A stretch of DNA of 33,080 nucleotides from Chthoniobacterales bacterium (GTDB lineage: Bacteria; Verrucomicrobiota; Verrucomicrobiia; Chthoniobacterales; UBA10450): the NCBI GenBank assembly GCA_013820755.1, contig JACDHZ010000009.1, positions 1 through 33,080 on the forward strand, read 5' to 3'. Position 1 is the stretch's first letter; each line of letters starts with the position of its first letter. Both the position numbers and the translations under genes were made by a program. The notes beneath the pieces were generated by a model that ran no database searches, was not told the origin of the DNA, and worked only from the letters and a program-made list of their open reading frames with translations. This document shows positions 5,088 to 14,519 of the stretch, piece by piece.

Positions 5088-5426
5088 GTGGTGGAATCAT
5101 CTGACCAGTTTCATCATAATGTGTATGTGGTCCTGCTCGACTCGCAGGTGGCGAAACATCCATCGGTTGTGCGAGCGAATCCGCGGCGCGATCCGGCGAA
5201 ACCGTGCGTGTATGTCGGCATGAGTGGTTTGCCACCGGAGCACCGGTTTGAGAACCACAAGCACGGCTACAAATCCGCATGGACCGTGGAGAAGTACGGC
5301 GTGCGTTTGATGCCCGACCTCTACGAGCATCTGAATCCAATGCCGTACGAAGCCGCCCTCCAGATGGAGATGGAACTCGCGGAGGATCTTCGCGCCGAGG
5401 GCTTCACCGTTACTGGAGGGCACTGA
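5088..5426 (+). CDS. GIY-YIG-like small protein
   Basis: A 112-residue protein with the two short strands of a GIY-YIG nuclease domain: VYVVLL near residue 12, then CVYVGMSGLPPEHRFENHKHGYKS (about 39-62), where the arginine and the helix that follows match the family layout. The usual downstream glutamate may be one of those in the C-terminal segment MEMELAEDLRAEGF. A start at GTG 5088 or at the next codon, GTG 5091, is equally possible. It lies 40 bases after the glycogen-synthase-like gene. The role is unknown; such stand-alone domains occur in DNA repair, in restriction and as inactive versions. The antisense ORF 5097-5477 is taken as a shadow. Confidence 0.7.
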   Translation: MVESSDQFHHNVYVVLLDSQVAKHPSVVRANPRRDPAKPCVYVGMSGLPPEHRFENHKHGYKSAWTVEKYGVRLMPDLYEHLNPMPYEAALQMEMELAEDLRAEGFTVTGGH

Positions 5427-5451
5427 GCGCTGCTTCGCAGCATCGCCGCGT

Positions 5452-5523
5452 AAGGTCGTGTTCATCAACCGCTGCACGAAGGTCGTTAAGGGCGGTCAGC
5501 GTTTCACAATGACGGCTATCTGA
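5452..5523 (+). pseudogene. Short fragment of ribosomal protein S5 gene (rpsE)
   Basis: Between two genes, 23 codons read KVVFINRCTKVVKGGQRFTM and then TAI followed by TGA. This matches the N-terminal RNA-binding strand of bacterial ribosomal protein S5, where the family pattern is close to VNRVxKVVKGGRRFxFxAL. Nothing like the rest of S5 (the VGFGxGKA region) follows in any frame, and no ribosomal protein genes surround it. I read it as a stray remnant of about 70 bases and not a functional gene. Chance similarity cannot be excluded at this length, but the run of matching residues around KVVKGG is long. Confidence 0.55.
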
Positions 5524-5719
5524 AGAGAATCCGAGCGGCTTCGCCGCGATTGTAAGAGGCGCGATCAAAACGTCCGCGATACGCGGCAGCCTGTGTTTAC
5601 ACCCTCCGCCGACAAATTTGGCCACAAATCTCCGTTGGAGATTCCTTTCTACAACCCGGGAAATTGGGTGTGACTTCAACGAATAAAGGTCCCGGCTGGG
5701 CGTCAAAGGTTGCTCGACC

Positions 5720-7069
5720 ATGGAAACCGGCGTCCAGCTTTCAGCACCGATGCGATTCCAGACTGCACGGAAGGACCGGCCGGTACTTCGCGGAGAGGGG
5801 CAGTTGGCAGGTGTTGCCGTCACTCCTGTCGTGAACGAACCGTTCAGCAGCAGGCCGAAAGCACTGCGCGCGATACTCGCGGGGCTCGGCTTCACCCTGG
5901 TGCAGTTGTTCATCACGGTGGTCCTGATCGCGCCTGAAGGGCCGATGTCATACCGCTACCAAACCCTAGTGCAACACGACAGCTACTGGTTCGCCAACAT
6001 CGTCGGACGCGGTTACGACACGATACTGCCGCCGATTACCCGCAAAATGATGGAAGTTTCGAACGTTGCCTTTTTCCCGGCTTATCCGGCCATCGCGGCG
6101 ATCTTGCACAAGGCGACCGGGATCGGGATCTACAATTCTTTATTGATCTCTGCGCAAACAGCGGCCTGGGGGTTCTGGAGTTACTTCTTTCTTCTGTGCG
6201 ATCGCTGGACGGTGCGGCCGGAACTGCAATTCCTCGGCGCGATGAGCGTGCTCGCGCATCCTACCGCATTTTTTCTGATCGCCGCGTACTCGGAATCTCT
6301 CTTTCTGGCCGGGTTACTCGGATTCATTTACTGGAGCGCAGCGGAGGGGCGCCTTGCCAAAGTCATCGCTGCGGCACACGGGATCGTGATGTCCGCGACT
6401 CGCATCGTCGGCATTCCATGCGCGGCCTACCCTGTGGTGCGAACGCTTTGCGAGCGGGGCTGGGGACCCTTGCGTGATATTCGCGCATTGGTGCGCAATT
6501 ACGCCGCGCCGCTCGCACTCACGACGGTAGCGACTTTTGGTGGCTTCGCGTTTTTCTTGTATTGCCTCGTCCGCTGGGGACGCTGGGATCTGTACATGCA
6601 AACTCAGGCGACTGGCTGGGCGATCATCCCCGATTATCTCGCGGTGCTAAAGCCCGCTAGTTACCGCTGGTTGATTCCCGCCATGGATAATCCAACCCAG
6701 GCGAGCCAGATGACGATGACCCTCGGCGCTATCGCATTCCTCCTTGTGGGTATCTTCGAATTGTTCGCCGCCCGGCGGTGGCGCACTGCGTGGCCGAAGC
6801 GTCTCGCCATCTATTTTAGTGCGTTCGTCACATTTTATCTCGCAGTCAGCGGTGTCGCTTCGGTCGAAATGGAAAGCATGCTGCGTTACCAGTTCTGCGC
6901 GCACGCTTTAATCGTGCTGGCGCTTTTGCATTTTCTGGCCCAGTTTCGAACCCCGCCGATGCCGATACGCATCGTGGGCATGGCAGCGGCGGCGCTGCTG
7001 TGGCCTCTGGGGTTCAGCCTGCAAGGCTGGTACGTCTGGAATTTCACCCGCGCAGGGTGGGTAGCTTAA
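5720..7069 (+). CDS. PIG-V-like integral membrane mannosyltransferase
   Basis: Polytopic membrane glycosyltransferase of about 449 residues resembling the bacterial relatives of GPI mannosyltransferase 2 (PIG-V, GT76). The landmarks are the first luminal loop HDSYWFANIVGRGYD with its acidic residue, NVAFFPAYPAIAAIL, and AYSESLFLAGLLGFIYW, with eight or more hydrophobic helices. The likely donor is a polyprenyl-phosphate sugar. The first 48 residues are polar and poorly typical, so the true start may be the ATG at 5750 or a later codon. It ends six bases before the FAD oxidoreductase gene, so the two are probably co-transcribed. Donor and acceptor are not known. Confidence 0.8.
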   Translation: METGVQLSAPMRFQTARKDRPVLRGEGQLAGVAVTPVVNEPFSSRPKALRAILAGLGFTLVQLFITVVLIAPEGPMSYRYQTLVQHDSYWFANIVGRGYDTILPPITRKMMEVSNVAFFPAYPAIAAILHKATGIGIYNSLLISAQTAAWGFWSYFFLLCDRWTVRPELQFLGAMSVLAHPTAFFLIAAYSESLFLAGLLGFIYWSAAEGRLAKVIAAAHGIVMSATRIVGIPCAAYPVVRTLCERGWGPLRDIRALVRNYAAPLALTTVATFGGFAFFLYCLVRWGRWDLYMQTQATGWAIIPDYLAVLKPASYRWLIPAMDNPTQASQMTMTLGAIAFLLVGIFELFAARRWRTAWPKRLAIYFSAFVTFYLAVSGVASVEMESMLRYQFCAHALIVLALLHFLAQFRTPPMPIRIVGMAAAALLWPLGFSLQGWYVWNFTRAGWVA

Positions 7070-13136: not shown

Positions 13137-13242
13137 ATCAAGCTCCGCCACGCCGTCACCGACGAGCTCGCCGCCTACAAGCTGGCGCAGTTACCCTTCC
13201 CCGGCGTCTTCGGCGTCATTTACCAGAACAATCGGCCAACAA

Positions 13243-13311
13243 GAATCGAGCCTGCGGGAAGCGGTGCGAGATGGACGGGAAGCCCGGAGGGCGAGCGACG
13301 GGCGGAGCGAG
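13243..13311 (+). repeat. Mini-element copy B
   Basis: About 69 bases from AGAATCGAGCC to GGCGGAGCGAG, lying in frame between codons for NRPT and RVNAL of the truncated gene. By hand alignment it differs from copy C at only four positions, including one deleted base in C. It contains a small GCCC-GGA-GGGC hairpin and an internal GAGCGA repeat near its right end. Confidence 0.75.
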
Positions 13312-13421
13312 TTAACGCGTTGGAGAAGAAGTGGGTGGATTCGACGAGGGAAAAACTCGGTCAGCCCACGGACCTACAGCTTCTTCAGAAAACATTCGAC
13401 CGAATGAAGTGACAACGCTAG

Positions 13422-13728: not shown

Positions 13729-13935
13729 ATGAAAATCAGCTATGACGCTGAGGTCGATGCGCTGAGCATCATGTTTCGTGATACGACAGTCACGACGAAG
13801 CATTTAGCCGAAGGCATCGCTGCTGATTACGACAGCGAAGGCCGTCTTGCCGGCCTCGAAATTCTCGATGCGAAGCAGCGTTTCGGCGACGCCGACACAA
13901 TGCGCCGGGTCGAGCTGGAGGGCGTCGGCTCATGA
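13729..13935 (+). CDS. DUF2283 domain protein (putative antitoxin-like partner)
   Basis: A 68-residue protein starting MKISYDAEVDALSIMFRDTT, with the DUF2283 pattern: an initial DxxxDxLxI strand, an EGIAADYDSEGRLAGLEIL hairpin, and a short helix DADTMRRVEL. The ATG lies three bases after the stop of the DUF4258 gene, the usual order and spacing for this pair. In the family these are thought to be antitoxin-like or accessory, and the biochemical role is not known to me. It survives intact beside a broken partner. The stop is followed at once by sequence homologous to the tail of the upstream remnant. Confidence 0.8.
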   Translation: MKISYDAEVDALSIMFRDTTVTTKHLAEGIAADYDSEGRLAGLEILDAKQRFGDADTMRRVELEGVGS

Positions 13936-13937
13936 TC

Positions 13938-14116
13938 GGCCGACCAAAAATCGAGCCCGCGGGAAGCGGTGCGAGATGGACGGGAAGCCCGGAGGCGAGT
14001 GACGGGCGGAGCGAGTCAATGCGCTCGAGAAGAAATGGGTCGACAGCACGCGCGAAAAACTCGGCCAACCGAGCGATCTGCAACTGCTGCAGAAGACCTT
14101 CGATCAGATGAAGTGA
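13938..14116 (+). pseudogene. Second, diverged copy of the 3' tail of the 12918-13412 gene
   Basis: Starting two bases after the DUF2283 stop, the sequence repeats the end of the upstream remnant: a TCGGCC-ACC start, mini-element copy C, then 33 codons reading VNALEKKWVDSTREKLGQPS and DLQLLQKTFDQMK to a TGA at 14116. The tail protein differs from the first copy at 2 of 33 residues, while I count 27 of 102 base differences, nearly all synonymous. Copy C has lost one base, so this tail is out of frame with anything upstream. It is a non-coding relic of a paralogous gene. Confidence 0.6.
13946..14015 (+). repeat. Mini-element copy C
   Basis: Nearly identical to copy B (A/G at the second base, C/T after GAGCC, GAGGCG for GAGGGCG, and GAGTGA for GAGCGA). 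It lies at exactly the same point of the duplicated tail, just before the VNALEKK codons. Confidence 0.75.
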
Positions 14117-14519
14117 GTACGGCCGTTAGTAAAGCGCTCGCGGGGACTCCGCTCCCTACGCGATTGCTCGAGTGCTCAGGCGTAATGGTTGGCAAGCCGG
14201 AGATCTTAGGCACTCATTGAGAGTTAGATTCGCAATCGTCGACGCTTCCGGCATTCCAAAATTCGTCCTGCACCGCATTGTGCCGGATCGGTGCCGCGCA
14301 CGCATGCCGCAGGCGTAACCCCGCGCGGCTCCAGCGATGTGTTGCTTAACGCAAGCGGCGCGTCATTGTGCGACAAACGCGTCGCTGTGAATACCGCCAC
14401 CCAACAGCGTCGCCGCACTCGATTGGAGACGAGTCATGAAGAGCTCGAGCGCACCGGATCTTCCGCGCCGGCTGGGCCAACGTCTGCAAAACACCAGACG
14501 CCTGCTCAGCACTTCTTGA
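14117..14519. other. About 400 bases without a recognisable gene
   Basis: No convincing protein or RNA in either strand. It begins with a GC-rich stretch (GCTCGCGGGGACTCCGCTCC) that looks like a dispersed intergenic repeat, though only one copy lies in this window. ORF 14291-14641 overlaps the start of the methyltransferase remnant in the wrong frame and shows no domain. It most likely holds degraded insertions. Confidence 0.5.

Follow-up and report, generated by a model that had tools for sequence, protein, structure and literature searches.

The DNA analysed here (hereafter the window) is a stretch of 33,080 nucleotides from a Chthoniobacterales bacterium (contig JACDHZ010000009.1 of assembly GCA_013820755.1). 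Within it, two conserved open reading frames (ORFs) of 112 and 449 amino acids enclose a spacer of variable sequence, and a flavin oxidoreductase gene comes after the second ORF (Table 1). The 112-aa ORF occurs in most of the family, with 72–81% identity to the window copy (ten aligned). Its motifs H.VYV.LL, CVYVG and HRFEN are invariant, and two relatives carry a broken second copy close to the intact ORF (L060 1727–1894 in G020 and L058 1148–1267 in G025). The 449-aa ORF has no match in Pfam or NCBIfam. The order of the two ORFs is retained in ten relatives, whose intervening spacers are about 120 to 1400 bases long and too different for an empty-site comparison; those of G027 and G033 hold a pyrophosphatase-like frame, as read from the sequence by eye. 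The sole spacer part that is similar among relatives is the leader of ~40 bases before the 449-aa ORF.

Table 1 Features of the mosaic-bearing spacer and its flanks. Positions are those of the window; C173 and C202 are other contigs of the same genome.
Feature	Position	Strand	Description
Upstream conserved 112-aa ORF	5088–5426	+	GIY-YIG-like by eye only; found across the family without the mosaic
Variable spacer with mosaic	5427–5676	.	Other sequence in relatives
Shard A	5452–5506	+	Sense copy of own rpsE, codons 28–46 (C173:4574–4628); 53/55 identical
Shard B	5504–5533	-	Antisense to 5' part of secY, codons about 17–26 (C202:601–571); 29/31, one gap
Shard C	5533–5578	-	Antisense to 3' part of secY, codons about 460–474 (C202:1945–1900); 44/46
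Possible further shards	5580–5606	.	12 exact bases of C173:2071–2082 (+), then rplF antisense, C173:3836–3820, 16/17
Leader of next gene	5677–5719	+	Resembles that of relatives (GAATAAA...CGTCCAA.TTTGCTC); bounds the variable part on the right
Downstream conserved 449-aa ORF	5720–7069	+	Mannosyltransferase-like according to the earlier note

Between the two ORFs, positions 5452–5523 translate as KVVFINRCTKVVKGGQRFTMTAI, followed by a stop codon. An earlier note on this DNA had read the frame as the N-terminal part of ribosomal protein S5 ending in a stop, and both the translation and the Pfam S5 N-terminal profile bear this out: the profile matches the peptide with an E value of 1.5e-5 and recovers the same piece in a whole-genome search with an E value of 4.6e-4. 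The score lies under the curated cut-off because the S5 piece is short. Comparison at the DNA level with the organism's own rpsE, a check that the note had proposed, gave identity at all but two of the 55 bases from 5452 to 5506, and a match of this grade is expected by chance about 6e-23 times in 6 Mb (a 3 Mb genome counted on both strands); chance similarity is thereby refuted. The DNA match ends sharply, so that of the 23 codons originally assigned to S5, the part through 5506 is S5-derived and the remainder is not; the last codons (TMTAI and the stop) are antisense to the 5' sequence of secY, read in an accidental frame. The own rpsE lies on a separate contig, C173, as an intact open frame of 194 codons in a normal ribosomal-protein operon. 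Two suggestions are supported: that the fragment is a genuine partial copy of an essential gene, and that it marks a capture event. Like an rpsE duplication or pseudogene, it is rpsE-derived; unlike an ordinary one, it spans ~18 codons, has no start and is fused to antisense secY. The feature is larger than first seen and continues rightward into antisense secY.

Searching the organism's own genome with the spacer revealed two further pieces, both matching secY on contig C202, which has a 127-base overlap with the end of C173 and extends the same operon into that gene. The own secY is intact, and the sources of all three shards lie within 2.5 kb of one ribosomal-protein operon. The resulting mosaic, at 5452–5578, comprises 127 bases in which the shards abut without a gap, sharing 3 bases (TCA) at the join of shards A and B and 1 base (G) at the join of shards B and C; pieces, origin, order, orientation and joins can all be read directly from the alignments. 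Shard B is the weaker match. Its best place in 858 kb of the own genome is secY (E 0.01, vs 2.3 for the next), and since secY is by far the best place and the piece sits exactly between shards A and C, we take it as real. The organism's own genes are also the closest sources: shard A is 96% identical to its own genome and at most 91% to other genomes, and the own secY is closest to shards B and C. Right of the mosaic, the 12-base and 16/17 matches to the same operon extend the chain neatly past shard C. Of 150 real intergenic stretches searched as controls against the ribosomal operon, one matched as well as the rplF piece, for which equally good places also exist elsewhere in the own genome. 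Operon shards beyond 5578 are possible, and we do not claim any at 5580–5621, where both matches are similar to chance ones.

Shard A differs from the own rpsE at 5476 and 5498, in both cases by a change from G to A that alters an amino acid (A to T and R to Q, respectively). Both residues are kept in the rpsE of all eight relatives compared, and the changes were therefore most likely acquired after copying; residue-altering changes are as expected of unconstrained sequence. The differences in shard C, at 5567 and 5576, fall on synonymous sites of secY, and one relative (G028) carries the letter of shard C at both. They may reflect change in the shard or in secY, or a slightly different donor strain. 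In total, the mosaic shows six differences from its sources in about 130 bases, which indicate decay, and a divergence of ~5% implies that the event was not very recent.

Neither the S5 piece nor the mosaic is present in the matching spacer of any of the ten relatives with the conserved gene order; the earlier note had proposed looking there, beside GIY-YIG-like genes in relatives, for the S5 fragment. Against 83 family genomes, shard A gave at most one match per other genome among the matches listed, as expected for rpsE itself. Whole-genome searches with the spacers of three relatives found no multi-piece mosaic: that of G027 contains palindromic repeats, that of G033 gave a single 38-base match, and the third gave nothing significant. 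The palindromic repeat in the G027 spacer (L059 2660–2722) is ~62 bases long and has ~30 matches in that genome.

Across 213 genomes of the order, no other shard-size match to the S5 profile was seen. Second matches to the profile occur only in the source genome, G057 and G078; in each of the latter two, the match is an almost complete domain on a different contig and not a shard. An exact search with the join of shards A and B gave a single hit, 20 bases long, in a Burkholderiales MAG, which is about the chance level in 257 Gb; in viral contigs the join had no exact match. Within the own genome, we compared 437 intergenic stretches (150 kb) with 764 predicted genes and found no other gene shards that were both remote and in several pieces. 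This survey sampled 28% of the genome, used gene calls from a simple script, and confined self-comparison to the stretches taken; the remaining strong intergenic matches are local copies or contig-end overlaps. One further gene shard, though a local one, is a 53-base intergenic sequence that is 94% identical to part of a predicted gene nearby (L138, on contig C245, 1705–1757 and 2440–2492). The window itself also contains two direct copies of a 188-base repeat, 81% identical to each other, at 13231–13417 and 13935–14121, parts of which also match L094. The mosaic looks like a rare accident.

We consider it reasonably probable that the 127 bases at 5452–5578 are a DNA repair scar, with filler drawn from the organism's own ribosomal-protein operon, probably via Ku/LigD end joining. 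Several features are those of such a scar: (i) The inserted pieces are short and come from elsewhere in the own genome. (ii) The two inner joins show microhomology, of 3 and 1 bases, overlaps near enough to chance level that end joining is not proved by them alone. (iii) The gene content includes two predicted Ku proteins and two predicted proteins with a LigD polymerase domain. (iv) In Streptomyces ambofaciens, 30, 42 and 83 bp of the organism's own genomic DNA were found at three cut-site scars, with microhomologies marked (PMC5869714). The mosaic resembles the Streptomyces scars in its short own-genome pieces, its microhomology and the availability of Ku and LigD; it differs in that three pieces make up one scar, in that all come from one ribosomal operon, in its partial decay and its draft-genome setting, and in that the Streptomyces breaks were induced and observed. 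We favour Ku/LigD end joining on the strength of this filler-like anatomy, the Streptomyces precedent, and the two Ku proteins and two LigD polymerase domains. A break or stalled end would have arisen in the spacer that follows the 112-aa ORF and is dispensable, and the gap would have been filled with one rpsE piece and two secY pieces from the ribosomal-protein operon, presumably the cell's own DNA rather than DNA imported from the same species. The pieces would have been joined head to tail at 1–3 shared bases and then sealed. Ku/LigD end joining, a pathway that takes up short DNA or copies from short templates, would probably have been responsible, and the copy would afterwards have decayed without function. 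The mosaic is most likely a harmless fossil of error-prone repair and not a working element.

That the mosaic is an artefact of assembly or library preparation is very unlikely. The assembly is a draft of 316 contigs and the length of the mosaic equals that of the contig overlap, both 127 bases, but the mosaic differs from its source genes at six positions, and the flanks stand in the gene order of the relatives, so that nothing is misjoined. Even less probable is a remnant of an attachment site, or DNA carried as cargo by a mobile element or homing nuclease, as might be suspected from the adjoining small ORF, which the earlier note took for GIY-YIG-like and beside which it saw a possible integration or decoy. 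No tRNA is present in the window, phage and plasmid collections and viral contigs contain no match, and the three separate shards do not form a single attachment core. The 112-aa ORF has no sequence match in Pfam, NCBIfam or the PDB, its AlphaFold model (pLDDT 64.5, low confidence) has no fold match, and it is conserved in relatives without the fragment; neither a nuclease role for the neighbour nor mobile integration is supported. A decoy or homing target is rejected as well: the rpsE piece is accompanied by two further operon shards, the three stem from three distinct places in two genes and are not specific to rpsE, and the ORF beside them is unconfirmed as a nuclease. A working regulatory RNA is likewise highly improbable. 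A putative plus-strand transcript would carry 34 exact bases antisense to the 3' part of the secY mRNA, together with bases complementary to the 5' part, and could reduce secY expression. However, the mosaic was not found in any relative (83 family genomes searched), has no credible match in Rfam, folds in a way that is not unusual (z 0.57), is ~5% diverged and consists in part of sense rpsE. A search for RNA structure, promoters and terminators at the mosaic found only small hairpins above chance.

The main rival to end joining, possible if doubtful, is either short-patch double illegitimate recombination or replication-fork template switching, without Ku/LigD. Short single strands of the operon, the cell's own or acquired from dead siblings, would have annealed at microhomologies and been copied in, which predicts the same anatomy of short pieces from both strands with microhomology joins, and the genome encodes the competence protein ComEC. 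According to its title, Harms et al. 2016 (PNAS 113:15066; cited in PMC6321871) reports substitutions in which short heterologous segments have an intragenomic origin, and as far as that title goes, the mosaic is like short-patch double illegitimate recombination in that short intragenomic DNA was placed elsewhere. It is unlike such recombination in that several pieces are fused and apparently inserted rather than replacing other sequence, and competence is suggested here by ComEC only. Sequence alone does not separate end joining from fork switching or illegitimate recombination, but filler at a break accounts somewhat better for the fusion of three pieces and the apparent net insertion. The origin of all shards, three or perhaps five in number, in a single operon goes against capture of random fragments, which does not explain it; one shattered operon fragment, or the nearness of a transcribed locus, would account for it. 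This operon is normally heavily transcribed, and transcription or its RNA might have supplied the filler, i.e., by transcription-linked or RNA-templated patching. We regard such patching as quite unlikely; if true, the mosaic would be a natural record of it in bacteria.

Filler insertions at breaks are already known from laboratory experiments, and, read as a repair scar, the mosaic is a clean natural case, in which the common operon origin of the shards presents a small puzzle. A readable multi-piece scar in an environmental-type genome suggests that filler insertions persist in nature and that they can move core-gene pieces into spacers, with the potential to mislead annotation and marker-gene searches.
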